From: Thermoleophilia bacterium SCSIO 60948
GTDB taxonomy: Bacteria; Actinomycetota; Thermoleophilia; Solirubrobacterales; 70-9
Direction of reading: 5' to 3'
Length of the DNA stretch: 64,000 nucleotides
Assembly: GCA_021496505.1 (NCBI GenBank)
Contig: CP053031.1
Location: forward strand, 62,001 to 126,000
The notes beneath the pieces are model-generated. The model was not told the DNA's origin. It was given only the letters and a program-made list of their open reading frames with translations, and searched no databases. Both the position numbers and the translations under genes were made by a program. This document shows positions 8,857 through 62,302 of this stretch, piece by piece; within the stretch, counting starts at the first letter, position 1; every line of letters begins with the position of its first letter.

Positions 8857-8878
8857 GCCGCCACCCCGTATCGGCGGC
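8857..8878 (-). terminator. Weak hairpin between the flavoprotein gene and gdhA
   Basis: GCCGCC and GGCGGC form a 6-bp stem with a 10-nt loop just after the end of the minus-strand flavoprotein gene. It could terminate that transcript. There is no T-tract, so support is positional only. Confidence 0.3.
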
Positions 8879-8883
8879 CCGCC

Positions 8884-11815: not shown

Positions 11816-11837
11816 GCCGGGTTCGGCCCGACGCCGC

Positions 11838-12044
11838 TCAGTCGCCGTCGCGCGGCGGGTGCAGGATCGCGCCGACGAGCCCGATCAGGATCATCACGAC
11901 GATCAGCAGCGAGACCCCGGCGAGGACGACGATGCTGAGGTTCTCGAAGCCTTCGCGGAGCAGCGCCTGGAGCGTCACGAGCGCGAGCAGGACGCAGAAG
12001 AGCGCCCCGAAGACGAGGACCAGGGTCCGTGCGACACCCCTCAA
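11838..12044 (-). CDS. Small two-helix membrane protein downstream of the RDD gene
   Basis: 68 residues with two hydrophobic helices (about 7-27 and 37-60) and a short charged tail. The likely start is TTG 12044, which overlaps the TGA of the RDD gene (TTGA at 12044-12041), so translation is coupled. No family was recognised. Its position as the last gene of the lpd-bkd-lip-RDD series suggests a membrane partner of the RDD protein; that is inference. Confidence 0.6.
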   Translation of the reverse strand: MRGVARTLVLVFGALFCVLLALVTLQALLREGFENLSIVVLAGVSLLIVVMILIGLVGAILHPPRDGD

Positions 12045-44662: not shown

Positions 44663-46132
44663 CTAGGAGGAGACGGGGATCGTCGCGATCGTCTCGAGCG
44701 CGAACTTGCCCTCGTGACCGCCGCTCGGGTCGCCGAGCGGGTACTCGCCCGAGAAGCAGGCGTCGCAGTGGAGCTCGCGCGGCGTGCCGACGGCCTCGTA
44801 GACGCCGTCGAGCGAGATGTAGGCGAGCGAGTCGGCGCCGAGCTCGGTGGCGATCTCCTCGACGGTGCGCTCGTGGGCGATCATCTCCTCGCGCGTCGAC
44901 ATGTCGACCCCGTAGTGACACGGGTTGCGGATCGGCGGGGCGGAGATCCGCAGGTGGACCTCCTTGGCACCGGCGTTTCGCAGCATTCCGATGATCTGGC
45001 GCGTCGTGTTGCCGCGGACGATCGAGTCGTCCACGACCACGACGCGCTGGTCGCCGACGATCTCGGGCAGCGGGTTGAACTTCATCCGCAGGCCGTGCTT
45101 TCGCAGCTCCTGACCCGGCTGGATGAAGGTCCGCTGGACATAGCGGTTCTTGATCAGGCCGTCGTCCTTGGGCAGCCCGGCCGCGCGGGCATAGCCGTTG
45201 GCCGCGGCGTTGCCGGAGTCCGGGACGGCGATCACGAGATCGGCGTCGACGGGCGCCTCGCGGTGGAGGATCTCACCCATCCGCCCGCGCACCTGCTGGA
45301 GGACCTTGCCCTCGAGCCGCGTGTCGGGACGCGAGAAGTAGATGTGCTCGAAGACGCAGTGCGCGGGCTGCTCGGAGGCAACCACCTGTCGGGTCTCGAT
45401 TCCGCGCTCGGTCAGCGCGACGAGCTCACCCGGCAGCACCTCGCGCAGGAACTCGGCGCCGATGATGTCGAAGGCGCAGCTCTCCGAGGCGACGCAGTAG
45501 CGGTCGCCGAGCTTGCCGATCGCCAGCGGCCTGACGCCGTGCGGGTCGCGGAAGGCGACGACGGCGCGCTTGGTCATCACGACGGTCGAGTAGGCGCCGC
45601 GCAGGCGCGGCATGACCGCGGCGACGGCGTTCTCGATCGGCCGCTCGGGCTCGATCGAGAGCAGCGCGGCGATGATCTCCGAGTCGGAGGTGCCACGGAA
45701 TTCGATCCCCTGCTCGCGGAGCTCGTTGTAGAGCTCGACGGCGTTGGTCAGGTTGCCGTTGTGGGCGAGCGCGAGCTCACGGCCGTCGTCGCGCCAGACG
45801 GGCTGCGAGTTCTCCCACGACCCACCGCCGGTCGTCGAGTAGCGGACGTGGCCGATCGCCATGTCGCCGTCGAGCGCCCGCAGCTTCTGCTCGTCGAAGA
45901 CCTGGCTGACCAGGCCGGCGTCCTTGAGCGCGGTGATGTGACCGCCTTCGCAGGTCGCGATGCCGGCCGACTCCTGGCCGCGATGCTGGAGTGCGTAGAG
46001 CGCGAAGTAGGCGAGGCGGGCCGGCTCGCGGCCGGGGGCGTATACGCCGAACACCCCGCACTCGTCGCGCGGGCCATCGCGTTCTGGAACGTCGGATCGG
46101 GCGGCAACCCCTGGCCGCTCTTCGGTCGACAC
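44663..46132 (-). CDS. purF: Amidophosphoribosyltransferase, 4Fe-4S type with propeptide
   Basis: 489 residues from GTG 46132. Residues 1-24 are a propeptide; the mature enzyme starts at catalytic Cys in DECGVFGVYAP. The glutaminase domain has HRGQESAGI, GHVRYSTTGG and AHNGNLTNA; the PRTase domain has VIAVPDSGNAAANGYA, KNRYVQRTFIQPG and VVVVDDSIVRGNTTRQI. Cysteines in HCVFEHIYF, NPCHYGVDM and CDACFSGEYP match the [4Fe-4S] ligands of the Bacillus-type enzyme. It catalyses the first committed step of purine synthesis. purL is separated from it by about 16 kb of other genes. Confidence 0.96.
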   Translation of the reverse strand: MSTEERPGVAARSDVPERDGPRDECGVFGVYAPGREPARLAYFALYALQHRGQESAGIATCEGGHITALKDAGLVSQVFDEQKLRALDGDMAIGHVRYSTTGGGSWENSQPVWRDDGRELALAHNGNLTNAVELYNELREQGIEFRGTSDSEIIAALLSIEPERPIENAVAAVMPRLRGAYSTVVMTKRAVVAFRDPHGVRPLAIGKLGDRYCVASESCAFDIIGAEFLREVLPGELVALTERGIETRQVVASEQPAHCVFEHIYFSRPDTRLEGKVLQQVRGRMGEILHREAPVDADLVIAVPDSGNAAANGYARAAGLPKDDGLIKNRYVQRTFIQPGQELRKHGLRMKFNPLPEIVGDQRVVVVDDSIVRGNTTRQIIGMLRNAGAKEVHLRISAPPIRNPCHYGVDMSTREEMIAHERTVEEIATELGADSLAYISLDGVYEAVGTPRELHCDACFSGEYPLGDPSGGHEGKFALETIATIPVSS

Positions 46133-46233
46133 TTGTCGCTTCTCACTCGGTCTCGAGGGAGGGACGAGGACGCGGTCGAGGGTACCAGCGGCCGCGGCGA
46201 GTGCTCGGCGGGGGAGTGGGGTGGTCGGGAATC

Positions 46234-46251
46234 CACCCGAGGTGGGTGGTG
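46234..46251 (+). promoter_or_regulatory. Propeller-regulon motif, copy 1
   Basis: CACCCGAGGTGGGTGGTG, with inner dyad CCACCC/GGGTGG. The CCC (46236) is 46 nt before ATG 46282. Confidence 0.6.
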
Positions 46252-46281
46252 GGTGCGAGCCCGTCGCGCAAGCCTCTGGCC

Positions 46282-47544
46282 ATGACTCACCCCAGAACCG
46301 CTCTCGTCCTGTTGGCCCTGCTCGGGTCGCTCTTCGCCGCGCCGGCGAGCGCCTCCGCCGGCCAGCTCGACCCCTCCTTCGGCGGGGATGGCAGGGTGGT
46401 GCGAGCCGGACTTTCCGGCGCCGATGCGATCGCGGTCGATCAGCGGGGTAGGACGCTCGCGCTCAGCGACCGTCCGCGCCCGGGTCGAAGTACCTCCGAG
46501 CTTCTCGTCACGCGATTCTCGGCGAGCGGCCGGCTCGATCGTGGGTTCGGGCGGTCCGGAAGCGTCTGGATCGATGCGACCGGGCGCCAGGACTACGCGG
46601 CCGGGATCGCGATCGGAGAGGCCGGCCGGATCACGGTCGCGACCGACACCGGCAGGAGCAATCGCTACGACGTCTGCGACGGCGGCGAGGACTGGAGCGT
46701 CGAAGTCATCAGGCTGAGGTCGTCCGGACGGCTCGACCGCGAGTTCGGGAGCCGTGGTCACCAGGTGCTGCGCGATGACCCCGGCCTCGACTTTCAGTCT
46801 CCGACCGCGGTCGACGTCGGGCCGAACGGCGCCGTCGCCGTCTCGGGCTATGGCTGGTACGGGAACGGATCGGACTGCAATCGCGTCGCGATCGCGGCTC
46901 GACTCGACGGCGCGGGCGCTCCGGACGAGGCTTTCGGGGGTGACGGCGTCGTGCGCCTGGACGAGCTCTCGACGGCGGTCGATGTCGAATTCGACTCGGC
47001 GGGCGCGATGCTCCTCGGCGCGCAGCCGCGGACGGACGGCTTCGGGGCGGCGCGGCTGCTCGGCGACGGGGGGCTCGACGAGACGTTCGGCGCGGAGGGA
47101 GTCGCGCTGGCCGATGGTGTGGGCACGGCTGATGTCTCGATCCTGGGCGACGGGCGGATCGCAGTCTCCGGGCGAGCCGGTGAGGGCTCGGCTGTCGCCG
47201 TCTTCGATCAGGGCGGAGAGCTCGCCGCCGAGTTCGGCGAGGGGGGAGAGGTCGCCACGCCGTTCGGGGACGGCGCCAGGCTGGTCCCGCGGGGGGACGG
47301 CTTCGTCGCGGCCGGGACGCTCAGCCGACCCGGCACCCGAGAGGATTTCGCAGCGGTCGCGTTCGAAGGCGACGGGGGCGTCGACGAATCGTTCGGCACG
47401 GATGGTCTCGCGCAGGCGGACCTCGGCGCCGCCGCCGACGACGAGGTGCTCAGCGCGGCACCCGGCCAGGCGGGAAAGACGGTCATAGGTGGGATCGTCG
47501 CGGGTGTGAACGAGCGCATGGGCCTTCTGCGACTGCGCCGCTGA
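46282..47544 (+). CDS. Secreted delta-60 repeat protein 1 (predicted seven-bladed propeller)
   Basis: 420 residues. A Sec signal (MTHPRTALVLLALLGSLFAA, then PASASA) is followed by seven copies of the delta-60 motif L-D-x-x-F-G-x-x-G: LDPSFGGDG, LDRGFGRSG, LDREFGSRG, PDEAFGGDG, LDETFGAEG, LAAEFGEGG, VDESFGTDG. Between them lie strands of the VA.R...DG.I.VAG type. Seven repeats suggest a seven-bladed beta-propeller. No membrane anchor or sortase motif, so it is secreted or loosely surface-bound. A pair of Cys (VCDGG and SDCN) may form a disulfide. Function unknown. Confidence 0.85.
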   Translation: MTHPRTALVLLALLGSLFAAPASASAGQLDPSFGGDGRVVRAGLSGADAIAVDQRGRTLALSDRPRPGRSTSELLVTRFSASGRLDRGFGRSGSVWIDATGRQDYAAGIAIGEAGRITVATDTGRSNRYDVCDGGEDWSVEVIRLRSSGRLDREFGSRGHQVLRDDPGLDFQSPTAVDVGPNGAVAVSGYGWYGNGSDCNRVAIAARLDGAGAPDEAFGGDGVVRLDELSTAVDVEFDSAGAMLLGAQPRTDGFGAARLLGDGGLDETFGAEGVALADGVGTADVSILGDGRIAVSGRAGEGSAVAVFDQGGELAAEFGEGGEVATPFGDGARLVPRGDGFVAAGTLSRPGTREDFAAVAFEGDGGVDESFGTDGLAQADLGAAADDEVLSAAPGQAGKTVIGGIVAGVNERMGLLRLRR

Positions 47545-47588
47545 AGTGCGGGGACACCGCGCTCGGCCGTGCCCCGGCTGCGGCTCAG

Positions 47589-48587
47589 CTAGTCGCGGAG
47601 GCGCGTGGTCTCGATGCGGCCGGGGAGGTACGCAGCCGAATCGAAGCGCCGCGACAGCATGGCCTCGACGGGTAGCCCGACGGCCCTGGGAGCGAGCAGC
47701 CGCGACTCGGCTTCCGGGTCGTCCGCGAGCCAGCGATCGAACCAAAGGCCGGTGTAGTGCGCTACGAGCCGTCGCTGGCGGTCCGAACCCGCGTTGCCGA
47801 ACTCGACGTGGTCGAACCCGCGCAACACGAGCTCCATGCTCGCCACGCCCTGCTCGCGCCAGTGGTCGAAGCCGAACTGCTTGAGGTCGCGCGGTTGGAA
47901 GCGCGGCCGGGCCTTGCACGGCGCGTCCTGAGCGAGGCCGAGCGCGGGCGCTCCGACCGGGATCTCGTGCGCGGGCGGTCCGACGCAGTTGCCGCCGACG
48001 CCGCCCGGATCGCCGTGGCGCCAGCGGCGCAGGTTGTCGAGCAGCACGACGGCGTCGATGCCAGGGTCGGCCTGGACGATGCTCGCGGTGTGGGCTCCCA
48101 GCGAGAAGCCGCCGATCCCGATTCGCCTCGGGTCGATGCGGTCGGCCAGCGGGTTCGCCGGGTCACTCGCGAAACGGACCGCGGCGCGCATCGCCTCGAC
48201 CGATCGCGGCAGCGAGCTGAGGCCGTCGCGCTGCGGCGCGCTGTAGGCGATCGCTACGTATCCGTGACCGGCGAGGTAGCGCTGGAGCCAGAAGACGTTG
48301 CAGAGCTGGCTCGAGATCCCGTGGCCGAACGTGACCACGGGTCGCGGTCCCGGGTAGCGCTCGCGATCGGCCGGCGCCATCACGACGGCGGGCAGATCGA
48401 ACTCTCCGTCGGGGATCGTCGCCTCCCGGATCACGGCGCGCCCCATCCAGTCGCGCACTTCTCCGGGGCAGACCGCCGAGTCGCCATGGGCGACCGCGCC
48501 CGAGGCGCCGGTTCCGGCGCTCGGGGATGACTCCCCGCCACAGGCGACGAGGAGCACGGCGAGTGCGGCGAGCAGGACGCTCGTCAG
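47589..48587 (-). CDS. Lipoprotein alpha/beta hydrolase (lipase/dienelactone-hydrolase-like) 1
   Basis: About 332 residues. The mature part begins at lipobox Cys in LAVLLVACGGE. Catalytic landmarks: oxyanion TFGHGISSQ, nucleophile IGGFSLGAHTASI (G-F-S-L-G), a VVLLDN strand and a C-terminal HVEFG His candidate. No ATG, GTG or TTG precedes the signal peptide in frame within the intergenic region; CTG 48587 gives a sensible lipoprotein signal, while GTG 48557 gives one that is too short. The start is therefore uncertain. Paralogue of the gene at 52179. Probably an outer-face esterase; substrate unknown. Confidence 0.75.
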   Translation of the reverse strand: MTSVLLAALAVLLVACGGESSPSAGTGASGAVAHGDSAVCPGEVRDWMGRAVIREATIPDGEFDLPAVVMAPADRERYPGPRPVVTFGHGISSQLCNVFWLQRYLAGHGYVAIAYSAPQRDGLSSLPRSVEAMRAAVRFASDPANPLADRIDPRRIGIGGFSLGAHTASIVQADPGIDAVVLLDNLRRWRHGDPGGVGGNCVGPPAHEIPVGAPALGLAQDAPCKARPRFQPRDLKQFGFDHWREQGVASMELVLRGFDHVEFGNAGSDRQRRLVAHYTGLWFDRWLADDPEAESRLLAPRAVGLPVEAMLSRRFDSAAYLPGRIETTRLRD

Positions 48588-48649
48588 ATGTCGCGCGGCC
48601 GCTGACAGAACGCAGCAGAGTAGAGGTCCGAAGAGGCGGGCTCGAGGCC

Positions 48650-49474
48650 TCAGCCGAAGTCCGGCCAGCGCGCGACGTCGATCTCGGGGCAGAGCTCCGC
48701 CAACCGCTCGACGTCTCCCCGCAGCCGTTCGACGAGCTCGGTGCGAAGCAGTGGATCGATCTCCGGCTTCTTCGCGCTGTCGGGAGCGTCGCGGGCGAGG
48801 CGCTTCGGCAGCTCGTCGAGCGGCTCGATGCCGAGGAACTCGTGCGTTCGCCGCATCTCGGAGAGTGTGTTCTCGAGCGCATGCTCGAACTGCAGGACAA
48901 GCACGCGCTCGCGCCCGAACAGTTCGAAGGCGCGCCGTACCTGCTCGAAGTAGAGGCTCCGCAGGAGGTTGTCGCCCGAGACCGCCGCGCTGCCGGCGTA
49001 GCCCTCGCGCTCGGCCTTGCGAACGTCGCGTCCGATCCCCGAGCGCCAGCGCTCGACCGGATCGCGAAGCATGATCAGCACCTTCGCCTCCGGTGCGATC
49101 TCTCGTATCATCCGCAGCGCCCAGAAGTCGGACATGTAGCGCGGCGTCCACTCACCCGCGATCTGCCCCGGGGCGCGCGGGAAGAGCTCGGCGTAGCGGG
49201 CGGCGAGCTCGGCGAGGGGCGGCGCCGGCTCGGCGAAGTACCGGTCGAAGAAGTGGATCTCCTTGCGCGGGCCGAGCGGGTCGGCGACCTGCGGATGCGG
49301 CCGGATCGCGCCGCGATACCACCACGTCGTCCCACCCCGCTGCGCGCCGACTCCGACGAAGTCGGGCGGACCCGTCGTCCACCCCTCGGGCACCTCCGGT
49401 ACGACGATCTCCTTCTGCCACTGGTGACGGACTGGTGGCGACGGAGTCTCGAGGGACTCGCCTTCGCTTTGCAT
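48650..49474 (-). CDS. Sulfotransferase family protein 1
   Basis: 274 residues from ATG 49474. The PAPS 5'-phosphosulfate loop is FVGVGAQRGGTTWWYRG (about 40-56) and the 3'-phosphate site is VLIMLRDPVERWRSG (about 125-139). The catalytic His/Glu candidate is KEIHFFDRYF. Size and motifs match bacterial carbohydrate/lipid sulfotransferases. No signal peptide, so it is cytoplasmic. It diverges from delta-60 protein 2 and is followed by the lipase-like lipoprotein gene. Confidence 0.85.
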   Translation of the reverse strand: MQSEGESLETPSPPVRHQWQKEIVVPEVPEGWTTGPPDFVGVGAQRGGTTWWYRGAIRPHPQVADPLGPRKEIHFFDRYFAEPAPPLAELAARYAELFPRAPGQIAGEWTPRYMSDFWALRMIREIAPEAKVLIMLRDPVERWRSGIGRDVRKAEREGYAGSAAVSGDNLLRSLYFEQVRRAFELFGRERVLVLQFEHALENTLSEMRRTHEFLGIEPLDELPKRLARDAPDSAKKPEIDPLLRTELVERLRGDVERLAELCPEIDVARWPDFG

Positions 49475-49499
49475 GCGGCCCAGTATGGGGCCGTCCCGC

Positions 49500-49512
49500 C
49501 CCAGGGGTGATG
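49500..49512 (+). promoter_or_regulatory. Propeller-regulon motif, copy 2
   Basis: CCCAGGGGTGATG, within CCCC-A-GGGG. CCC at 49500 is 45 nt before ATG 49545. Its complement (CCCTGGGGCGGG) lies 32 nt before the divergent sulfotransferase start, so one site may serve both genes. Confidence 0.55.
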
Positions 49513-49544
49513 CGCCTCCCGCCTCCACGACGCATGCTGAGCCG

Positions 49545-50819
49545 ATGAACGTGCGATTGCGACGCGCCGCCCTGCTCATCCTCGCCTTCGCCGCTCTTTC
49601 CGGTGCCTCTACGGCCGGCGCGGCGAGCGGGGACCTCGACCCGCGCTTCGGCCGCGACGGCAAGTTGGCACCGCCGCAACTCGCCCGTGGCCGACCCGGC
49701 GACATCGCCGTCCTTCCCTCGGGCGCCTCCCTGGTCTGTGTGACCGGTGCGCAGAGGGGACGCGAGGGCATCACGGTCGTGCGCCTCCGGCCCGACGGGT
49801 CCCTGGCTCGTGGCTTCGGCCGAGAAGGGTTGGCCAGGCTCCGGGCCCCGGCGCGCGCGACCGGCTGCCGCGTCGAGGCCCTCGGGCGTGAGGGCGCAAT
49901 CGTCTCCTACGGAATTCGCGATTACGGCAGTTCTTCGAGCTTCGAGCTCGGGGTCGCGCGTTTGACCAGAGACGGGCGCCTTGACGGCCGCTTCGACCGT
50001 GACGGCATTCAGACGTTCGGCGTCGACGATGGAACGTTCGCAGGTGGCCTCGCCATGTCGCAGGACGGCATCTACGTCGGTGGCTACACCCAGCGCCAGC
50101 GGGAGTTCGTCGTCTACCGGCTCAATCTCCGCGGGCAGATCGATTCCGGCTTCGCGGGTGACGGGCGGGCCGAGACCTCGTTCGACGAGCTCAGCGCGAG
50201 AGCGTGGGGACTCGCGAGCCTGGAGCTCGACTCAGCCGGAAGGATCGTGCTCGCCGGCACGGTCAGTATCGATCGCGGCAGTTTCACGAAGCACGCGTTC
50301 GGCCTCGCGCGGTTGACGGCCGACGGCCGGCTCGACGAGTCGTTCTCGGATGACGGGATGATCGCGGACTGGGACCGGCCCGAGATCAATGCCGCCGCGG
50401 TGGCACCCGACGGCCGCATCGCCATCGCCTCCGGTCTCGGGGACTTCACGGTCTCGGTCGTGCGACCCGACGGCACCCTGGACCCCGAGTTTGGAGCCGC
50501 CGGCACGGCGCGTGTCGACTTCACCGATGCGAACGACATCCCAGCCGATATCGCCTGGGACGGCAACGCCATCCTGGCCTCCGGGAGCACCAGGACCCAG
50601 CGGAGGGGTGAGGACTTCGCGATTGCTCGACTTCGGCCGGACGGCGAGCTCGACGGTCGCTTCTCGGGCGATGGAAAGCGAGCGATCGACTTCGGACGCG
50701 CCGACGACAACGTGACCGCCATGGCGATCGGGCCGCTCGGTCGCGTGACGCTCGCCGGCGAGACCGACCGTGAACCGGGCCAGGTCGACCGGCCGGTGTT
50801 CGCGCGGATTCGCGGCTGA
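49545..50819 (+). CDS. Secreted delta-60 repeat protein 2 (predicted seven-bladed propeller)
   Basis: 424 residues. Sec signal MNVRLRRAALLILAFAALSG then ASTAGAA. Seven repeats: LDPRFGRDG, LARGFGREG, LDGRFDRDG, IDSGFAGDG, LDESFSDDG, LDPEFGAAG, LDGRFSGDG. Two cysteines (LVCVTG, TGCRVE) may pair. Asp/Gly-rich turns could bind Ca2+. No anchor. Start supported by the motif at 49500 and the signal peptide. Confidence 0.85.
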   Translation: MNVRLRRAALLILAFAALSGASTAGAASGDLDPRFGRDGKLAPPQLARGRPGDIAVLPSGASLVCVTGAQRGREGITVVRLRPDGSLARGFGREGLARLRAPARATGCRVEALGREGAIVSYGIRDYGSSSSFELGVARLTRDGRLDGRFDRDGIQTFGVDDGTFAGGLAMSQDGIYVGGYTQRQREFVVYRLNLRGQIDSGFAGDGRAETSFDELSARAWGLASLELDSAGRIVLAGTVSIDRGSFTKHAFGLARLTADGRLDESFSDDGMIADWDRPEINAAAVAPDGRIAIASGLGDFTVSVVRPDGTLDPEFGAAGTARVDFTDANDIPADIAWDGNAILASGSTRTQRRGEDFAIARLRPDGELDGRFSGDGKRAIDFGRADDNVTAMAIGPLGRVTLAGETDREPGQVDRPVFARIRG

Positions 50820-50840
50820 ACCGCCGGGTGCCGGGGTTCA

Positions 50841-50855
50841 CACCCGGGGGTGGTG
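50841..50855 (+). promoter_or_regulatory. Propeller-regulon motif, copy 3
   Basis: CACCCGGGGGTGGTG: dyad CACC...GGTG. CCC at 50843 is 45 nt before ATG 50888. Confidence 0.6.
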
Positions 50856-50887
50856 CGCGCAGGACCACACGTGAGGAGGCTGCCGAC

Positions 50888-52204
50888 ATGACGACCTCCC
50901 CCCAGCGTGAGTCCAGTTCAAATGCCCGCCGTGCCGCTGTCGCGATAGCCGCGACGGCCGCACTCGCCGCACCGGCGCTTGCCCTCGCCGCCAAGCCGGG
51001 CGACCTCGACACCCGCTTCGGGGGCGACGGCAAGGTCCTGCGCGACCTCGGGATCGGTGACCGGGCGGAGGATCTCGTCGTCCAGCCGGATCGCAAGGTG
51101 GTCACGGTCTCGACGGTCGAGTTCCGCAACGACTACGCGATCCAGGTCAACCGCTTCCTCGCGAACGGGCGCATCGACTCGCGATTCGCCAACGAGGGCC
51201 GGCGGATCATCGCCCTGCCGGGTGACGAGTACGCGCCGGATGTCGCGCTTGCGGACCGCGGTCGGATCGTCGTCTCCTTTCGCGCCGATACGAATGACGC
51301 GCCCGTCGGCGTGGCGAGGCTCACCGCCCGCGGCGAGCCGGACGAGAGCTTCGATGGCGACGGTCTGCAGACCGTCGGGTTCGGAGCCGAGATCGACAGC
51401 TTCGACGCGCCGGTCGATGTGGCGGTCGCGCCCGGCGACGACATCGTCGTCGCCGGGTCGGGCGCACGGGCTGACGCCGACCCCCAGGGCAGTGACTTCA
51501 CGGCGATCAGACTCAACGCCAGTGGTGGACTCAGGGAGTCCTTCGGCGATGGCGGCCGTGCCGTGGTCGATGCGGGTGGGAGCGACGAGGCACGAGCGCT
51601 CGACGTCGACAACCAGGGCCGCGTCGTGATCGCCGGGGATTCCTACGTCCATCCGGGAACGCGGCAGCTTGCCGTCGCTCGGCTGACCGCCGACGGCGAA
51701 CCCGACCCGGCGTTCGCGGGCGATGGCGGCCAGACGAGCGAGCTGATGCGCGGTTCGGCCGACATCACCGTGATGCCCGGCGGGGGAGTCGCGCTCGCCG
51801 GCGTCGTCTCCGGTGACTTCGGCGCCGTCCGGATCGCCGAGAACGGCTCGCCCGACGCTTCGTTCTCCGACGATGGTCTTGCCACGGTCGACTTCGCCGA
51901 TTCGACGGACTCGGCGGTCGCGATCACGCAGGACGACGGGCGCCTGATCCTCGGCGGCCCGATCCGCACCCAGCGGCGCGGTTTCGACTTCGGCGTCGCG
52001 CGGTTGTCGGCCGCGGGCGCACCCGACCGCGGCTTCTCCGACGACGGCCGCCGAGCGACCGACTTCGGCAAGAGCTCCGACGAGGCAGCGAGCCTCGATG
52101 TCGACGGGCGCGGCGCCATCGTCGTCGGTGGAGGCATCGAGAAGCGCTCCGGCGGCGACCGCTACGACACCGGTCTGCTCAGGGTGCTCGGTCGGCGTCG
52201 CTGA
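50888..52204 (+). CDS. Secreted delta-60 repeat protein 3 (predicted seven-bladed propeller)
   Basis: 438 residues. The signal is preceded by a polar n-region (MTTSPQRESSSNARR) and ends about ALALAA. Seven repeats: LDTRFGGDG, IDSRFANEG, PDESFDGDG, LRESFGDGG, PDPAFAGDG, PDASFSDDG, PDRGFSDDG. The ribosome site GAGGAGG lies upstream of ATG 50888. Its 3' end overlaps the convergent hydrolase gene by 26 nt. Confidence 0.85.
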   Translation: MTTSPQRESSSNARRAAVAIAATAALAAPALALAAKPGDLDTRFGGDGKVLRDLGIGDRAEDLVVQPDRKVVTVSTVEFRNDYAIQVNRFLANGRIDSRFANEGRRIIALPGDEYAPDVALADRGRIVVSFRADTNDAPVGVARLTARGEPDESFDGDGLQTVGFGAEIDSFDAPVDVAVAPGDDIVVAGSGARADADPQGSDFTAIRLNASGGLRESFGDGGRAVVDAGGSDEARALDVDNQGRVVIAGDSYVHPGTRQLAVARLTADGEPDPAFAGDGGQTSELMRGSADITVMPGGGVALAGVVSGDFGAVRIAENGSPDASFSDDGLATVDFADSTDSAVAITQDDGRLILGGPIRTQRRGFDFGVARLSAAGAPDRGFSDDGRRATDFGKSSDEAASLDVDGRGAIVVGGGIEKRSGGDRYDTGLLRVLGRRR

Positions 52205-53234
52205 GCGCGCTGCGGCGCGTCGCCGCGTAGTCGAGGTCGTCGATCCGGTCGGGGAGGTAGACGCCCGAGTCGAACTCGGTGCTGAGGAGATCCCCGACCG
52301 GCTGGCCGAGGACCTCGTCGGCGAGCAGGTCAGCTTCGGCGCCACGGCGGCCGAGCAGCCAGCGGTCGAACCACGCGGACGCGAAGTAGGAGATCAGCGC
52401 TCGCTGGTAGCGCGTGCCCCCGGTGCCGAAGTCGCGATGTGAGAAGTCCGCGAGCACGAGCTCCATGCTCGGCTCGCCGACCTCGCGCCAGCGCAGCAGG
52501 CCGGGCTGCTTGAGACCGGTGCCGGCCGCCTCGGGGTGCTTCCGGCAGATCGAGTCGGACGCCATGCCGAGAGCGGGCGCCCGGGGCTCGATGTCGCCTC
52601 GCGGCTCGCCCGCGCAACCCGAGCGCACCGCCCCGGGGTCGCCCGAGCGCCAGCGATGCAGGTTGTCGAGCGCGACGACCGCCTCGATGTCGCGCTCCTC
52701 GTCGGCCTGGGCGATGCTCGCCAGCCGCGCCCCGTAGGAGAAGCCGAGCAAGCCGATCTCGCTCTGGTCGGCAGCGCGGCGGAACGGGTTCTGGGGACCC
52801 GCCGCGAAGTCGATCGCCTCGCCGAGGCGGTCGATCTGCCGCGACGCCGGAGTCGCGACATCGGACGGCGAGGAGTAGCTGACCACGATGTAGCCGCGCC
52901 CGGCCAGCCAGCGCCCGAGCCAGACGAGATCGCAGCGGTCGCCTCCCGTGTCCTGGGCGATGACGATCACCGGCCGCTCGCCCTCGAAGCGCTCCGGTGG
53001 CTTCGGCGCCAGGACGAGACCCTGCATCTCGCCTTCGCCTCCGCGAGAGGGGATCGAGACGGGCCGGCGGCGTGACGGCAGCGTTCCGTCGGGCTGGCGG
53101 ACGAAGTCGCAGATCGCGGTGTCCGGCGGCGTCGAGGTGACCGCGGTCCGGCTGCTCGGCTCAGGATCGATCGCCACGGCGACGAGCGCCAGAACGGCCG
53201 TGATCGCGGCCCAGATCAGGCTCCAGACCTTCAC
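52179..53234 (-). CDS. Alpha/beta hydrolase (lipase/dienelactone-hydrolase-like) 2
   Basis: 351 residues with one N-terminal hydrophobic helix (MKVWSLIWAAITAVLALVAV) acting as signal or anchor. Landmarks match the gene at 47589: VIVIAQDTGGDRCDLVWLGRWLAGRGYIVVSY, nucleophile LLGFSYGARLASI (G-F-S-Y-G), VVALDNLHRWRSGDPGAV. Cysteines CDFV, GDRCD and SGCAG are shared with paralogue 1 in part. Predicted extracytoplasmic esterase; substrate unknown. Confidence 0.82.
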   Translation of the reverse strand: MKVWSLIWAAITAVLALVAVAIDPEPSSRTAVTSTPPDTAICDFVRQPDGTLPSRRRPVSIPSRGGEGEMQGLVLAPKPPERFEGERPVIVIAQDTGGDRCDLVWLGRWLAGRGYIVVSYSSPSDVATPASRQIDRLGEAIDFAAGPQNPFRRAADQSEIGLLGFSYGARLASIAQADEERDIEAVVALDNLHRWRSGDPGAVRSGCAGEPRGDIEPRAPALGMASDSICRKHPEAAGTGLKQPGLLRWREVGEPSMELVLADFSHRDFGTGGTRYQRALISYFASAWFDRWLLGRRGAEADLLADEVLGQPVGDLLSTEFDSGVYLPDRIDDLDYAATRRSALSDADRAP

Positions 53235-53270
53235 GGGCGGCGATCGTAGAGGCGGGGACGACCGAGCGGT

Positions 53271-55178
53271 TCAGCGCTCGTAGGCGCTGACGGTCGAGTC
53301 GCCGAAGTTCGCGACCCAGAGCTCATTCGGGGCGAGACCGAGGTCGTTGGGCTTCGTTCCGGCCTCGAAGACCTCGGCGTCGCTCGTCGCCGTATCGATC
53401 TCGGTGACCGTGCCGGCGTCGCGACTGGCGACCCAGACCTGATCGCCGGCCGCTCTCAGACCGCGAGGTTTCGCGCCGACCTCGATCGGCTCCGCCGGCT
53501 CCTCGGACCGGGTGGAGATCCGCGTGACCGTGCCGCCGAAATTGTCGGAGACCCAGACGGCGCCTTCGTCGCTGGCCAGGTCGTTGGGGCTCTGACCGAC
53601 GTCGATCGGATTACCCAGCAGGCGTCGCCTCGCGGCGTCGATTCGCGACACCGAACCGCCACCCTGATTCGCGACCCAGACGTCTCCATCCTCGATCGTG
53701 AGCGCCGCGGGGAGGGGCCCGACGCGGATCGTGTCGGTGACCGAACCTTCGGGTTCGAGGCGGGTCACCGTGTCATCGCCACGGTTGGCGACCCAGATCG
53801 CGCGATCACCGATCGCTATGTCGACGGGCTGGGACCCGACGTCGATTCTCTGCTCGATCTCGCCCGTCGCGGGGGCGATCTGGATCAGTTCGTTGTTCGC
53901 GCGGTCGGCGACCCACGTGGATCCGAAGCCGATCGCCACCGCGACGGGTTCGCCTCCCAGGAAGATCTCCTCGGACGGGGAGTCGGCATCGGCGTCGATG
54001 ACGGAGATGGATCGCGACTGAGGCTTCGGGCTCACCACCCAGGTGCGGCCCGTGCCCGAGGCGAGCGCGACGGGCGCGGGTGGTACGTCGATCGTGGCGG
54101 TCGGCTCCCGGGAGACGACGCTCGGATCGCCCTCGGACGCGGGGTCGCCGCCGATACCGATCGCGATCGAGACCCCGATCGCGACGAGTGCCAGCACGAC
54201 ACCGGCCACGGCTCCGGCCCGCCGCCCGTCTCGGACGACTGAGAAGCGCCGGGTGGCCGCTGTGGCGTCGGCCGCGTCGGGGCGCGCGACGCCGAGTCCT
54301 CGCCGCTGACTTCGCATCGGAGCCGTCTCGTGCTCGGCCGCGCCCGCGAGCACGGAGGCGGCGTCGGCGGCGAACTCGCTCGCGCTCGCGTGGCGCTCGC
54401 CCGGGTTGATCGCCATCCCGCGACGCAGCACCTCGTCGATGCCCGCCGGCAACCCGGGCGCCCGCTCGGTCGCGGCGGGCCGCTCGGCGCTCGCGTGGGC
54501 GAACATCGTCGCGAGCTGCTCGCGCCCGCCGAACGGTGGCTCACCCGTGAGCACGTGGAACGTCACGCAGGCGAGCGAATAGACGTCGGCGCGCCTGTCG
54601 ACGTGCTCCCCGCGGATCTGCTCCGGTGCCACGTAGTCGACGCTGCCCAGGAACTGACCCGTCTCCGTGAGATCGCCACTCGCGTCGGCCAGCTTCGAGA
54701 TCCCGAAGTCGCACAGGAACGCGCGCTCACCCTGCCCGGATTCCTCGAGCAGGACGTTCGCCGGTTTGACGTCGCGGTGGATCAGGCCGGCATCGTGGGC
54801 GGCGTCCAGAGCCGCGCCGAGCTCGAACAGGATCGCCGCGCCGCGCTGCGGGCTCAGTCGCCCCTCGCCGGCGAGGACGGCGCGAAGGCTCGGCCCCTCG
54901 ACGAGTCGCATCACGAGGAACAGGCGTCCGTCGGAGGTCTCGCCGGCCGCGAGGACGGAGACGACGCTCGGATGCTCGATCGATGCGGCGAGACGAGACT
55001 CGCGCCGGAAGCGCTCCCGGAAGTCCGGATCGGAGGAGCGCTCGGCACTCAGCAGCTTGATCGCCCGCTGGCGATCGAGGTTCGGGTCGTAGGCGCGAAA
55101 GACCACGCCCATCCCGCCGCGCCCGATCTCGGGGCCGAGCTCGAGGCCCGCGATCTCCCCGCTCGGGCTTCCCTGCAC
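53271..55178 (-). CDS. Transmembrane Ser/Thr kinase with extracellular beta-propeller sensor
   Basis: 635 residues from GTG 55178. A complete PknB-like kinase: GRGGMGVVFRAY (19-30), AIK Lys41, HRDVKPAN (134-141), DFG (157-159), GSVDYVAPEQI. A Thr/Arg-rich juxtamembrane segment leads to one helix (about 322-343). The outer part (about 365-635) contains six to seven repeats of the type V..G..P..IA.G...WVAN...TV.RI, as in YVTN/Vgb-like propellers. So a cytoplasmic kinase carries a propeller sensor outside, in a region full of secreted propeller proteins. It diverges from the FHA-HTH gene across 42 bp. Confidence 0.92.
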   Translation of the reverse strand: MQGSPSGEIAGLELGPEIGRGGMGVVFRAYDPNLDRQRAIKLLSAERSSDPDFRERFRRESRLAASIEHPSVVSVLAAGETSDGRLFLVMRLVEGPSLRAVLAGEGRLSPQRGAAILFELGAALDAAHDAGLIHRDVKPANVLLEESGQGERAFLCDFGISKLADASGDLTETGQFLGSVDYVAPEQIRGEHVDRRADVYSLACVTFHVLTGEPPFGGREQLATMFAHASAERPAATERAPGLPAGIDEVLRRGMAINPGERHASASEFAADAASVLAGAAEHETAPMRSQRRGLGVARPDAADATAATRRFSVVRDGRRAGAVAGVVLALVAIGVSIAIGIGGDPASEGDPSVVSREPTATIDVPPAPVALASGTGRTWVVSPKPQSRSISVIDADADSPSEEIFLGGEPVAVAIGFGSTWVADRANNELIQIAPATGEIEQRIDVGSQPVDIAIGDRAIWVANRGDDTVTRLEPEGSVTDTIRVGPLPAALTIEDGDVWVANQGGGSVSRIDAARRRLLGNPIDVGQSPNDLASDEGAVWVSDNFGGTVTRISTRSEEPAEPIEVGAKPRGLRAAGDQVWVASRDAGTVTEIDTATSDAEVFEAGTKPNDLGLAPNELWVANFGDSTVSAYER

Positions 55179-55220
55179 GCGGCGATTCTAGGTGCCGTCC
55201 CTGGGACAATCGCCGGGTAG

Positions 55221-55895
55221 GTGGACGATCGAGTGCCAACCGAAGGTCAGTCGGCGACCGACCTCAAACGCCAGATCGAGCTCGAGCGTGACGGCCGCAG
55301 CTTCGTCGTCTGGCGCTCCGAGGACGGGGTCAACACGATGCCGCTCGGACGCGCGACGGTCCTGGTGGGGCGCTCCGCGGACGCGACGATCTCACTCGCG
55401 GCCGACAAGGAGGTCTCCTCGCTACACGCCGAGCTTGAACCCGTGGGCGGCGAATGGCTACTCGTCGACGACGGACTATCTCGCAACGGGACCTACGTCA
55501 ACGCCGAGCGGATCGCCGGACGGCGCCGACTCCGCGATCGTGACCTGATCCGCTGCGGGCGCACCACGATCCTCTTCCGCACGCCCGCGGCGGGCGCGCG
55601 TGACGCGACCGCGGTCGCGACCGACCGACCGGCGCCGCGGGTCACCGACGCGCAACGCCGCGTGCTCGTCGCGCTCTGCCGGCCGTTCGCATCGGGAAGC
55701 GAGTTCGCGACGACGGCGACCAACCGCGAGATCGCTGACGAGCTCTTCCTGTCGGTCGACGCCGTCAAGTCACACCTGCGCGCGCTGTTCGATGCCTTCG
55801 AGCTCGGGGAGGTGGCGCAGAACGAGAAGCGGGTGAGGCTCGCGGAGGCGGCCGTTCGCAGCGGGACCGTGACCGCGCGCGAGCTGCTCGACTAG
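55221..55895 (+). CDS. FHA-domain protein with C-terminal helix-turn-helix
   Basis: 224 residues from GTG 55221. The FHA domain (about 35-120) keeps the phosphothreonine-binding residues: VLVGRSADATI (Arg51), VSSLHAEL (Ser67, His69) and DGLSRNGTYVN (Asn89, Gly90). A linker follows, then a C-terminal DNA-binding-like segment TNREIADELFLSVDAVKSHLRALFDAFEL (about 166-194), similar to LuxR/winged-helix readers. It could be the phospho-dependent transcription factor of the divergent kinase. No receiver domain is present. That partnership is inferred from adjacency. Confidence 0.88.
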   Translation: MDDRVPTEGQSATDLKRQIELERDGRSFVVWRSEDGVNTMPLGRATVLVGRSADATISLAADKEVSSLHAELEPVGGEWLLVDDGLSRNGTYVNAERIAGRRRLRDRDLIRCGRTTILFRTPAAGARDATAVATDRPAPRVTDAQRRVLVALCRPFASGSEFATTATNREIADELFLSVDAVKSHLRALFDAFELGEVAQNEKRVRLAEAAVRSGTVTARELLD

Positions 55896-55966
55896 CCGCG
55901 AGGGGGCGACCAGGTCGCCGAGGGCGGTCATCGCGGCGCGAATCGGCTCGGGTGTGGGAGAGCCGA

Positions 55967-55981
55967 CACCCGAGGATGGTG
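55967..55981 (+). promoter_or_regulatory. Propeller-regulon motif, copy 4
   Basis: CACCCGAGGATGGTG: dyad CACC...GGTG with the same 7-nt centre length as copy 3. CCC at 55969 is 46 nt before ATG 56015 (34 nt before ATG 56003). Confidence 0.6.
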
Positions 55982-56014
55982 CCCGGAGGCGCTGATCGAC
56001 TCATGATCAGGCGC

Positions 56015-57340
56015 ATGAGACGAGCGGTTCCCATCTTCGCGGTGTCCTTGACGATCGCCGTGTCCGCGACGGCTATCGCCGCTCCCGGTGCGCTCGACCG
56101 CGACTTCGGCACCGACGGCCGCGCCACCATCCGCCTCGGTGGCCCCTCGAACGGCGTCGACGCCGCCGTCGATCCTCGCGGTCGAGCGCTGCTCGCCGGC
56201 CGGGAGGCTTTCGGCAACGGCGGCTCGGCAGTGGTCCGCCTAGCCCGCGACGGCGGGCTCGATCGCAGTTTCTCGGGCGACGGCAGAGCCGTCGTGGACT
56301 TCAGCGCCCGGTCTGACGCACGCGTGTTCTCGAGCGTCGAGGCCCTGGCGTCGGCGCGCGGCGGCGTCCTCGTCGCCGGACGAATCGGTCCGAAGCGAGC
56401 CGGCGACGAGTTCGACTTCCAGATCGGCGTCGAGAAGCTGACCGGCGCAGGAAGACCCGACCCCCGATTCGCCGCCGCCGGTCGCCTCGAGCTCGATACC
56501 GGCCCGGGTGGCGACACGGCCACGGACGTCGCCGTCGATGAGCAGGGACGAATCCTCCTCGCCGGCCGGACTGGCGAAGGCACGCCGGAGGGCCCGAGGT
56601 TCGCTCTCGTGCGATTGCTCGCCGATGGCACGCCGGACCCCGATTTCGGGGTTAGGGGCGTCGCCGATCCCGCGACTCTGCCCGAGGGGAACGCCGTCGC
56701 GGTCGAGCCCGACGCGGCGGGCGGGGTCATCGTGCTCGGCACATCTCCCGGCGATGGATCGGACCTCCTCGCAACGCGCTTCATGCAGAACGGCACGCTC
56801 GACGCCGGCTTCGGCTCCGGTGGCCGGACGCGGATCTCGTTCCCGGGCGGCGGATCGGAGGACATCGCGGCCGACCTCGCGATCGCCGGCGACGGGGACC
56901 TGCTCGTCGTCGGGAGCCGGGTTCTGAAGGCCGGGTCTGCTCCTCGCCACGGCGATGCGATCGTTGCTCGGTTGCTCGCCGACGGTACCCCCGATTCCGG
57001 GTTCGCCGCCGGAGGAGCCCGTCGGCTCGATCTACGCGGCGGTCGCGACATGGCGACCGCTGTGATGCCGTATCGCGACGGGCTGGTCCTGGCGGCCGCA
57101 ACGACCTCGGAGCGCTCGCGGGGGGTCGCTACGAGCCTCGCCGCCCTCGATCCGGCCGGCGAGCTCGACGAGCGCTTCGGCCGCGGCGGAGTGGCCACTT
57201 TCAAGGCGCGTGGCGACCGACGTGGTCAACTCACGCCGAGGGCGCTGGTCAGCTCGAGGAGCCGGATCATCGTCGCCGGCACGTTGAGTCGTGGGGACGA
57301 CGAGACGGCGATCTCCGCCATCGCGGTCTCGGGCCGCTAG
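56015..57340 (+). CDS. Secreted delta-60 repeat protein 4 (predicted seven-bladed propeller)
   Basis: 441 residues from ATG 56015 (ATG 56003 adds MIRR). The start was chosen from motif spacing and the signal MRRAVPIFAVSLTIAVSATA then IAA. Seven repeats: LDRDFGTDG, LDRSFSGDG, PDPRFAAAG, PDPDFGVRG, LDAGFGSGG, PDSGFAAGG, LDERFGRGG. No Cys and no anchor. Follows the FHA gene by about 120 nt with its own upstream motif. Confidence 0.84.
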   Translation: MRRAVPIFAVSLTIAVSATAIAAPGALDRDFGTDGRATIRLGGPSNGVDAAVDPRGRALLAGREAFGNGGSAVVRLARDGGLDRSFSGDGRAVVDFSARSDARVFSSVEALASARGGVLVAGRIGPKRAGDEFDFQIGVEKLTGAGRPDPRFAAAGRLELDTGPGGDTATDVAVDEQGRILLAGRTGEGTPEGPRFALVRLLADGTPDPDFGVRGVADPATLPEGNAVAVEPDAAGGVIVLGTSPGDGSDLLATRFMQNGTLDAGFGSGGRTRISFPGGGSEDIAADLAIAGDGDLLVVGSRVLKAGSAPRHGDAIVARLLADGTPDSGFAAGGARRLDLRGGRDMATAVMPYRDGLVLAAATTSERSRGVATSLAALDPAGELDERFGRGGVATFKARGDRRGQLTPRALVSSRSRIIVAGTLSRGDDETAISAIAVSGR

Positions 57341-57407
57341 AGGGGCCGCTGGTTCAGCGCCGGCCGTCTGCTCGTCGCGGTGGCCCGGCGGGGTGAAGCG
57401 CTTTCAG

Positions 57408-57425
57408 CCCGAGGGGGATGGGCGG
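57408..57425 (+). promoter_or_regulatory. Propeller-regulon motif, copy 5 (sulfotransferase)
   Basis: CCCGAGGGGGATGGGCGG. CCC at 57408 is 47 nt before GTG 57455. It lacks the final GGTG but keeps CCCGAGG at the same spacing. Confidence 0.45.
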
Positions 57426-57454
57426 GACATCCCGAGCGATCGAGACTCGGACAC

Positions 57455-58390
57455 GTGGGTTCGGACGGCTCTCACGCGGCGCCGGTGTTCATCGGTGGCT
57501 TCGGTCGCAGCGGAACGCATGCCGTCGGCGGCCTGATCGGCGCCGACCCCGGATTTCATCTCGTCGAGACCGAGATCCGGCTGCACGCTCACGGCGGCGG
57601 CTTGGCCGACCTCGTCGCGGGGAGGACCGATCTCGAGAGCTTCGTCCGGCGCTGCGAGGAGCGCTGGTGGAGCCGCGGTGCGAAGCGACCGCAGGGCATC
57701 CGGCGCCTGCTGTCGCGCGAGGCGTTCGACCGCGCGCTCGACCGGTTTCGTGAGGAGTTCGCCGACCATCCGTTGCCCGCCTCGCGCGAGTTGGTCGCCG
57801 AGATCGTCGGACCGGGGCTCGAGCGCTCCGGACGGCCGCGGTGGGCCGAGCTGACGGGCCGAAGCGCCGTCTGCGCCACCGAGCTCCATCGGATCTGGCC
57901 GGACGCCGTCTTCGTGAACATGATCCGTGACGGGCGGGCCGTCGCGGCCGGGCACGTGCAGAAGGCGGACATGACCGACGATCCGCTCAAGGCCCTCGAC
58001 GGCTGGGAGCGAATGATCCGTGGTTCGTTCGCGGGCCTCGCCGCGGTGCCGGCGGATCGGGTGCTCGTCATCGACCTCGATCATCTGGCGCATTCGGACC
58101 GCGAGGGCGTGCTCGGGCAGCTCGCCGGGGTGCTCGGGGTCGAGGACCTCGGCCCGATGCGCGGTCACATGCGGGCGAACATCACCGCCGGGCGCGCGCA
58201 CGTCGGCGCTTGGCGCGAGCGCATGCCGCCACCGGAGGCGCGCAAGGTCGAGCGTCGCTACCTACGGATCCTGCGCGGTCTGCGAGCCGATGGGATCGGC
58301 TGGTTCTCCGATCCGCGCGACCAGACACGCCTCGCCCGTCTCGGCGCCCGGTTGCCCTCGATCCACCCCAACCGCCTAGCCGCGCAGTAG
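57455..58390 (+). CDS. Sulfotransferase family protein 2
   Basis: 311 residues from GTG 57455; the start is supported by the upstream motif and by the PAPS loop at once after it (VFIGGFGRSGTHAVGGLI). The 3'-phosphate site reads VFVNMIRDGRAVAAGHV. Low similarity to sulfotransferase 1, so not a recent duplicate. Cytoplasmic. The downstream hydrolase starts 2 nt after its stop, so the two are co-transcribed. Confidence 0.82.
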   Translation: MGSDGSHAAPVFIGGFGRSGTHAVGGLIGADPGFHLVETEIRLHAHGGGLADLVAGRTDLESFVRRCEERWWSRGAKRPQGIRRLLSREAFDRALDRFREEFADHPLPASRELVAEIVGPGLERSGRPRWAELTGRSAVCATELHRIWPDAVFVNMIRDGRAVAAGHVQKADMTDDPLKALDGWERMIRGSFAGLAAVPADRVLVIDLDHLAHSDREGVLGQLAGVLGVEDLGPMRGHMRANITAGRAHVGAWRERMPPPEARKVERRYLRILRGLRADGIGWFSDPRDQTRLARLGARLPSIHPNRLAAQ

Positions 58391-58392
58391 CG

Positions 58393-59235
58393 GTGGCCCA
58401 TGCCCTGCCCCGGGTCGAGGGCGTCGAGAACGTCTTCCTCAGGATCGGCGAGCGCGGATTCCACGTCGCCGCGGCCGGCGCGGGTACTCCGGTCGTGCTG
58501 CTGCACGGCTGGCCTCAGCACTGGTGGTGCTGGCGTGAGGTGATGCCCCGCCTCGCGGCGGGCGGTCGCCGTGCTCTGGCGCCCGATCTGCGCGGGTTCG
58601 GCTGGTCGGACGTCGCTTGGTCGGGGCTCGACCGCCGGATGATGGCAGCCGACGTCGCGGCGCTCATGGACGAGCTCGACGTTCCGCGCGCCACGATCGT
58701 CGGGCAGGGCTGGGGAGGCTGGGTGGCCGCGACGCTCGCCTCGGCCGCGCCCGAGCGCGTCGACCGGCTCGTCCTCCTCGGCGCGCCGGCGCCGGGGGCG
58801 CGGCTCGGACCGACCGACCTGGCCCGGCTCTCAGCCGCCGCCGGTCACGTTCCCGTGCTCTCGACACGATTCGGCATGCGGCGAGTCGAGAGGCGGTTCT
58901 GGACGATGCGAATCCTGCGGCGGATGGCCGCGGGTGAAGACCAGGTCGACAAGGACGTTCAGCGACGCTACGCCCGCGACGCCAACGCGGTGACCCGAGC
59001 GCGCGCGTCGATGCTGCTCCACCGCGGGTTCCTGACCCACGACCTCTTTCCTCTCCTCTGCACACGGTTCGCCCCGGGCGCGAGCTCCAGAGTCACCTCG
59101 CTTCTCGGTGAGCTCGATCGCTTCTGCTCGGCACGTCTCGCGGGAGCCGGCGACGCGGACCTGTCGATCGTCCCGGGTGCGGGCCATCTGCTCGCCGAGG
59201 AGCGTCCCGAGGCGGTTGTTCGAAGCGTCCTCTGA
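58393..59235 (+). CDS. Alpha/beta hydrolase fold protein with glycine at the nucleophile position
   Basis: 280 residues from GTG 58393. The fold is clear: VVLLHGWPQHWWCWREVMPRL (oxyanion HGWP), APDLRGFGWSD, and a final GAGHLLAEERP with the His. The nucleophile elbow, which in epoxide hydrolase/dehalogenase relatives is GHDWGG, reads VGQGWGG (104-109), so the nucleophile Asp/Ser is Gly106. It is probably not a normal hydrolase: either non-catalytic, a binding protein, or using another residue. Co-transcribed with sulfotransferase 2. Confidence 0.82.
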   Translation: MAHALPRVEGVENVFLRIGERGFHVAAAGAGTPVVLLHGWPQHWWCWREVMPRLAAGGRRALAPDLRGFGWSDVAWSGLDRRMMAADVAALMDELDVPRATIVGQGWGGWVAATLASAAPERVDRLVLLGAPAPGARLGPTDLARLSAAAGHVPVLSTRFGMRRVERRFWTMRILRRMAAGEDQVDKDVQRRYARDANAVTRARASMLLHRGFLTHDLFPLLCTRFAPGASSRVTSLLGELDRFCSARLAGAGDADLSIVPGAGHLLAEERPEAVVRSVL

Positions 59236-59256
59236 GCCGCCCGCGGGGGTGGCACC

Positions 59257-59276
59257 GAACCGCCCTGGGGCGGTGG
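59257..59276 (+). promoter_or_regulatory. Propeller-regulon motif, copy 6
   Basis: ACCGCCC-TG-GGGCGGT is a perfect 7-bp dyad followed by GG. CCC at 59263 is 46 nt before ATG 59309. Confidence 0.6.
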
Positions 59277-59308
59277 TCGTCCGGGCCCGGCGATGCCACG
59301 CTCGGAAC

Positions 59309-60892
59309 ATGGCCAGATCCCTGATCGCTTTCGCGACGACGCTGATGACCCTGGTCGGGGTGCTCGCCCTTCCCGCGCAGGGGATCGGCGCGACGCCGGA
59401 TTTCGACCTCCTGTCGGGAGCTTCGGTAGAGGCCCGTGACTTCGACGTCCGCTCCCCGATGACCTCGGCCGATGCGCGAACGACGTTCTTCACGACCGAG
59501 CAGCGACTCGTCGCCCGCGACCGAGATCGAAGCGACGACCTCTACGTGACCCGCGAGTCGCGTACGCGCCTGGTGACGATCGGATCGAGCGCAGCGCGGT
59601 CAGGAGGTCGAGTGGGACTCGAGGCCGTCTCGCCGGACGGCCGGCGGGCCTTCTTCACCTCGGCGGCCAGGTTCGTCCGGGCGGATCGCGATTCGCGGCC
59701 GGATCTCTATGTGAGCGAAGGCCGAGACCTGCGACTGGTCAGCACAGGGTCGCAGGACCCTCCCGGCGAGGGACCGAGCTATGCGTATTCACCCGTCACC
59801 TACTCACCCGGCGTGCGCTCCGTCGCCTTCGAGACGAACGAGCCGCTGAGCTCGGAGGACCGCGACAAGGACTCGGATGTCTACGTCTGGGCCGGGGGGA
59901 AGGCGAGGCTCGCGAGCGGAGCGTTCCGTCCATCGGGATGCGGCGGCTGCTTCATCGTCGGTGGCGTCAGCGACGACGGGGCGTCCGTCGTCTTCTCAAC
60001 CGCGGAGCTCAGCGATCGCAGCGACCTCGACGACTGGGACGCGTGGCGGTGGACCGACGGTGAGCTCGAGTTGCTGGCCGATGCGCCCTTCGCCTCGCGC
60101 GATCTGAATCCGCCGACGAGCGTCTCCGACGGTCTCTCGACCGTCGTATTCGTGACGACCGACCCGTTGCTCGCCGAGGACCGCGACGAGAACGATGACG
60201 TCTACGTCTCGCGCGGCGGTGAGCTCGATGCGGTCTCGATCTCGGCGCTCGCCGATGGTGAGGCCGAGGGCGATTCCTCGCTCTCGACCGAGATCTCGGC
60301 CGACGGCCGGCAGTTCCTGTTCACGACGCCCGACAGGCTCACCGCCGCCGACGATGACGACGAGCTCGACACCTACCGCTGGCGTGACGGTGAGATCGAC
60401 TTCTTCTTCGACGGCGCGATTCAGATGCCGCCCGACGCTCGGTCGATCCCACCGCAGCTCTCGGACGACGGCTCACGAGTGGTCTTCTCGAGCGTCGAAC
60501 GTCTCTCGGGCGACGATGCGGACCGCGGTCTCGACGTCTACGAGGCGACGCAGGGTGAGGCGGCGACACTGATCTCAGACCAGCAGGGCGCTCCGGGCCG
60601 GTTGCCCGTCTACCTGCGGGCGATCAGCGATGACTTCGAGACGGTGTTCGTGCATACGAAGGGGTCGCTCTCTCCGAACGACGCCGATCCATCGCAGGAC
60701 GTCTACCGCTGGTCGGGCGGAGAGTTCGAGGGCGTGTCGGTTCGATCCGCCGACGCGTCGCGGGGGTCATCCGAGCTCATCGGCGCGTCGCCGGACGGTT
60801 CCTCGGCCGTCATCCTGACGGGCGAGTCACTCAGCCGGGAGGACCGTGACGGAGGCCTCGAGGATGTCTACCTCGCGGAGCTCGGTCGATGA
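59309..60892 (+). CDS. Secreted TolB/PD40-like beta-propeller protein
   Basis: 527 residues. Sec signal MARSLIAFATTLMTLVGVLA then LPAQGIGA. About nine repeats built as S.DG..V.F.T...L...DRD...D(V/L)Y(V/W)...G, e.g. ARDRDRSDDLYV, SEDRDKDSDVYV, AEDRDENDDVYV, GDDADRGLDVYE, REDRDGGLEDVYL. The D-x-D-x-x-x-D turns look like Ca2+ sites. A CGGC pair sits mid-protein. Not a delta-60 protein, but it shares the upstream motif and overlaps the following delta-60 gene (ATGA), so it belongs to the same set. Confidence 0.84.
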   Translation: MARSLIAFATTLMTLVGVLALPAQGIGATPDFDLLSGASVEARDFDVRSPMTSADARTTFFTTEQRLVARDRDRSDDLYVTRESRTRLVTIGSSAARSGGRVGLEAVSPDGRRAFFTSAARFVRADRDSRPDLYVSEGRDLRLVSTGSQDPPGEGPSYAYSPVTYSPGVRSVAFETNEPLSSEDRDKDSDVYVWAGGKARLASGAFRPSGCGGCFIVGGVSDDGASVVFSTAELSDRSDLDDWDAWRWTDGELELLADAPFASRDLNPPTSVSDGLSTVVFVTTDPLLAEDRDENDDVYVSRGGELDAVSISALADGEAEGDSSLSTEISADGRQFLFTTPDRLTAADDDDELDTYRWRDGEIDFFFDGAIQMPPDARSIPPQLSDDGSRVVFSSVERLSGDDADRGLDVYEATQGEAATLISDQQGAPGRLPVYLRAISDDFETVFVHTKGSLSPNDADPSQDVYRWSGGEFEGVSVRSADASRGSSELIGASPDGSSAVILTGESLSREDRDGGLEDVYLAELGR

Positions 60893-62259: not shown

Positions 62260-62302
62260 CCGGCTCGGCGATCCGAGAGACGGGCGAGCCCGACCGCGAG
62301 CT

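Follow-up and report, generated by a model that had tools for sequence, protein, structure and literature searches.

The window analyzed here, a stretch of 64,000 nucleotides from Thermoleophilia bacterium SCSIO 60948, contains an island of ~16 kb between purF (44663–46054) and purL (62303–64000), both on the minus strand. Of 29 relatives examined, 20 have purL at most 1.5 kb upstream of purF, which makes the island look like a lineage-specific insertion. Other relatives carry differing small inserts at the same place, and the purL–purF junction (46054–62303 in the window) can be described as an insertion-prone site. Several relatives (G012, G019, G004 and G002; L243, L244, L247 and L250) have sulfotransferase-like genes close to purL.

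Six plus-strand genes of the island are the subject of this study. Those at 46282–47544, 49545–50819, 50888–52204 and 56015–57340 encode delta-60/DUF5122 propeller proteins, the first being a delta-60 repeat protein that falls just under the NCBIfam cut-off; the products of 46282 and 49545 have signal-peptide-like N-termini. The gene at 57455–58390 encodes a sulfotransferase (PF13469) and has a hydrolase gene (58393) directly downstream, and the gene at 59309–60892 encodes a protein with a signal-peptide-like N-terminus for which no Pfam or NCBIfam match was found. An earlier note on this DNA, made from the letters alone, had counted five propeller genes sharing an upstream motif; this holds for the four delta-60/DUF5122 genes, whereas the 59309 gene is without a family match. 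The latter is the first of a pair, as a further delta-60 propeller gene (60889–62259, plus strand) overlaps its end by 4 nt. This arrangement is consistent with translational coupling to the preceding gene, which the note had put forward for the one propeller gene that lacks the motif.

A conserved box at a fixed distance from six start codons

Each of the six genes is preceded on the plus strand by a box that, registered on its CCC, exactly matches the consensus CCCNRGGNNGRTG. In copy 1 (CCCGAGGTGGGTG, 46236–46248) the CCC lies 46 nt upstream of the ATG at 46282, in copy 2 (CCCAGGGGTGATG, 49500–49512) 45 nt upstream of the ATG at 49545, and in copy 3 (CCCGGGGGTGGTG, 50843–50855) 45 nt upstream of the ATG at 50888. 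The distances are 46 nt to the ATG at 56015 for copy 4 (CCCGAGGATGGTG, 55969–55981), 47 nt to the GTG at 57455 for copy 5 (CCCGAGGGGGATG, 57408–57420), and 46 nt to the ATG at 59309 for copy 6 (CCCTGGGGCGGTG, 59263–59275). Re-reading the window thus bore out the sequences and CCC distances reported earlier, with a consensus tighter than the one first noted. A codon-usage gene caller independently picked four of the six starts (46282, 49545, 50888 and 59309). For 56015, it favored an in-frame ATG at 56003, 12 nt upstream, and for 57455 an in-frame alternative at 57485, 30 nt downstream, so that the choice of these two starts depends in part on the motif and is not certain. Island genes in the plus direction have the box, apart from 60889, which has none of its own, 58393, which comes directly after the sulfotransferase gene, and 55221, which has none at the spacing of the six.

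When an anchored search was run de novo over −62 to −18, with 13 columns and a jitter of ±1, it recovered exactly the six box positions. The set scores 68.7, compared with 38.4 ± 2.7 and a maximum of 50.5 for 1,152 random sextets taken from a pool of 227 further upstream regions in this genome (z = 11). Identity between copies amounts to 76% in the box columns, against 38% in the preceding 16 nt and 35% in the spacer, with a random expectation of 29%.

These values bear on whether the copies are functionless leftovers of a tandem duplication of a propeller gene together with its promoter. Such an origin would fit the four boxed genes that are paralogs, but the delta-60 paralogs are only 32–38% identical as proteins, and the near-random identity of the DNA around so well conserved a box largely refutes the idea. 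In addition, a family search indicates that the sulfotransferase and the 59309 protein share no family with the delta-60 genes. We therefore regard a leftover of duplication as very improbable.

A −10-like element and putative leaderless starts

A second element, missed in the earlier note, is present in all six promoters: an A-N3-T word with the A at −12 or −11 and the T at −8 or −7, in which the T lies 38 or 39 nt from the CCC of the box. It was first spotted by eye; a scan run afterward, covering every gapped word of two letters in the 34 nt that precede the starts, returned it as the sole word present in 6/6 with P below 1e-4 (P = 6.6e-9 uncorrected, ~3e-5 once the approximately 4,000 words and positions are corrected for). 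The corresponding −10-like hexamers, all on the plus strand, are AAGCCT (46270–46275), CATGCT (49533–49538), GAGGCT (50876–50881), and CACGCT (59297–59302) with the T at −7, and CATGAT (56002–56007) and GAGACT (57442–57447) with the T at −8. The GAGGCT hexamer of copy 3 overlaps GAGGAGG, which could serve for ribosome binding and would be an uncommon feature in a leaderless gene.

Leaderless promoters of the TANNNT type, in which the −10 element immediately precedes the start codon and there is little or no −35 element, have been described for Actinobacteria (PMC3160421). In the genome studied here, 33 of the 233 genes with an intergenic gap are preceded by a TANNNT whose T falls at −7, −8 or −9, with none at −6 and a background of about one per position outside −7 to −9. 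This enrichment implies that leaderless starts are normal in this genome, and the −35 signal of its TANNNT leaderless promoters is slight. The six island promoters resemble the described ones in the position of the −10 element, with ANNNT at the right place in 6/6, but they lack the first T of TANNNT, again in 6/6, and have in addition a strong box at −47 to −33. As about three quarters of the leaderless ANNNT boxes in the genome are estimated, by background subtraction, to have the first T, the six promoters without it look like a distinct promoter class. The position of the element suggests that the mRNA of all six genes starts at the start codon. Three minus-strand island genes that were checked have no box at the spacing of the six; their −10 sequences (CATACT, TACGAT and TAGAAT) are of the ordinary leaderless type.

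Could the box instead act in the mRNA, as a leader hairpin of the attenuator or riboswitch-like kind? The earlier note had offered this possibility on the basis of dyads, and dyads are indeed present in several copies: CACC-n7-GGTG occurs in three of them (1, 3 and 4) rather than the two reported, and copy 6 is perfect (ACCGCCC-TG-GGGCGGT). However, the dyad center varies among copies, the CACC/GGTG pairing is broken in two of the six (copies 2 and 5), and not a single pair has changed on both sides. Moreover, if the starts are leaderless, the box lies outside the mRNA and would not be transcribed from these promoters. With covariation absent and the likely transcription start downstream of the box, the leader hairpin was dropped, and we consider it hardly credible.

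Occurrence of the box in the genome and in relatives

The motif stands out against the genomic background: among 390 upstream regions of 100 nt, taken from a genome sample of ~0.54 Mb, the six island genes alone match. Ten further box matches in this sample comprise five in coding sequence and five in intergenic sequence, the latter at least 147 nt from the next same-strand start. Pattern searches covered the whole genome. The full arrangement, box + N21–22 + ANNNT + N6–7 + RTG, has 6 matches in 3,421,728 bases, all on the island, and 0 in the reversed control; as this pattern was fitted to the six promoters, the informative result is its absence elsewhere. A relaxed pattern gave two extra matches genome-wide, one intragenic and the other ahead of an unrelated gene (1149814), compared with two in the control, and matching with two mismatches was uninformative (72 matches versus 96 with the reversed control). 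A wider regulon in the genome was rejected, given that the strict pattern finds the six island genes alone and the relaxed extras are no better than the control. The same genome has a second delta-60 locus at about 2.818–2.824 Mb (L040:6458–12611), which is without the box; two of its genes (7834–9240 and 11274–12611, minus strand) have near-duplicate N-terminal regions.

When 60 close genomes and a 50-genome family set were scanned for the pattern, the matches were scattered, about half of them within coding DNA and none before a delta-60 gene, as judged by eye from translations. No box was found in the delta-60 neighborhoods of relatives (93 and 47 upstream regions). The lone match in the delta-60 neighborhood set lies ~70 kb from the delta-60 gene of its contig (L194), which had been selected because of the pattern itself. 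Evolutionary conservation in relatives was dropped as a line of evidence, as the matches are sporadic and often intragenic and leave no footprint. On the present evidence, the box appears to be private to this locus, the comparison within the genus comprising one other member, 54% complete.

A candidate regulator and its divergent kinase gene

Among the island proteins scanned, the sole DNA-binding candidate is the product of 55221–55895 (plus strand), which combines an FHA domain (PF00498) with a LuxR/NarL-type HTH. In a profile search, this HTH matches response-regulator domains (LiaR-like, VpsT, VraR and ComA; E 1.5e-4 to 8e-3). In the predicted structure (mean pLDDT 83), the FHA part forms a beta-sandwich and a helical domain stands apart from it, and a fold search with this model returned FHA matches, EmbR included. 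Divergent from 55221 is a gene for a Ser/Thr kinase whose C-terminal region is propeller-like (53271–55178, minus strand); it has an ordinary leaderless TAGAAT promoter and no box at the spacing of the six. The 42-nt divergent region between the two genes (55179–55220) contains a perfect 11-bp palindrome, GTCCCTGGGAC, with a core that fits CCCNRGG at another spacing; this may reflect autoregulation, or may be due to chance.

Linkage of an FHA-containing transcription factor to a Ser/Thr kinase is known from the EmbR/PknH pair of Mycobacterium tuberculosis (PMC9239209, PMC4601284). Similarly, 55221 has an FHA domain on a DNA-binding protein and an adjoining Ser/Thr kinase gene, and its FHA part (query positions 38–117) resembles that of EmbR in sequence and fold. 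Within the protein, the match to EmbR is confined to the FHA part: the DNA-binding part of 55221 matches LuxR/NarL-type domains, whereas that of EmbR is of the SARP-type winged-helix/BTAD kind.

In relatives, 6 of 8 FHA-HTH neighborhoods include a kinase gene adjacent to the FHA-HTH gene or close to it. FHA-LuxR-type HTH relatives, 43–58% identical, occur across the family and order (L189, L200, L201, L204, L205 and L206), usually in the vicinity of a Ser/Thr kinase gene and away from delta-60 genes. The recognition-helix region is nearly unchanged in the FHA-HTH proteins of relatives that are 50–58% identical, and no box was found in the FHA-HTH neighborhoods of relatives (84 upstream regions). 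That the HTH is kept in relatives in which no conserved box was found counts somewhat against 55221 as the box binder. Its linkage to the island makes 55221 the best, and a plausible, regulator candidate; that it binds the box itself is possible, although we would give this appreciably less than an even chance.

Discussion

What is the function of the box? In class II activation by LuxR/NarL-type proteins, the activator site lies around −41, overlaps the −35 region, and has a partial dyad. The box likewise lies near −41 at a fixed site overlapping the −35 region, 38–39 nt from the T of the −10 element in 6/6, and has a partial dyad, although CCCNRGGNNGRTG was matched to no described site. We consider it somewhat more probable than otherwise, judging from these sequence features, that the box is a class II activator site serving a local regulon of six promoters on one island. 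The earlier proposal of a promoter or operator that defines a regulon is well supported, with a motif far beyond chance, a fixed spacing to a −10-like element and a full pattern that genome-wide precedes these six genes only, and loses its leader-hairpin part.

In the mechanism we propose, transcription would begin at the start codon to yield a leaderless mRNA, and an activator would bind CCCNRGGNNGRTG between roughly −47 and −33, a stretch that lies upstream of the −35 region and extends into it. The 3′ end of the box, RTG, would take the place of the −35 TTG, 17–18 bp before a degenerate −10 element (NANNNT without the first T). With such a −10 element and RTG in place of TTG, RNA polymerase would need the bound activator. 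Both the binding of a protein to the box and activation by that protein are deduced from promoter layout. The binder may perhaps be the FHA-HTH protein of the island, possibly controlled by the divergent Ser/Thr kinase.

The same layout may be read in two other ways. First, an alternative sigma factor could read the box as its −35 element and NANNNT as its −10; in favor of this are the fixed 38–39 nt to the −10-like element, the RTG end at the −35 position, and the absence of the T that is common to most leaderless promoters of the genome. Yet a 13-bp box beginning at −46 is longer and extends further upstream than a −35 element, the A and T of a housekeeping-type −10 are retained, the island proteins scanned included no sigma factor, and the use of a sigma factor at six sites of a single island would be unusual. 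An alternative sigma factor thus seems unlikely to us. Second, the overlap with the −35 region and the partial dyad (CACC-n7-GGTG in copies 1, 3, and 4) would equally suit an operator at which a dimeric repressor blocks the −35 region. The degenerate −10 element in 6/6 is more easily reconciled with promoters that need activation than with strong promoters under repression, and we judge a repressor operator to be improbable as well.

Taking the class II activator site as the preferred reading, a fuller scenario can be drawn, which we offer tentatively and hold to be rather doubtful as a whole: the island kinase and the FHA-LuxR-type regulator would read phosphothreonine and switch on the secreted delta-60 propellers and the sulfotransferase via a private box and degenerate leaderless promoters.

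A literature search on the delta-60 family names found no paper. The box shared across the island suggests that the propeller genes and the sulfotransferase would be expressed together under a common signal, and it may provide a handle for finding that signal. The locus would present a clear case of a private regulon built on leaderless promoters, to which a kinase and a candidate FHA-HTH protein are linked.
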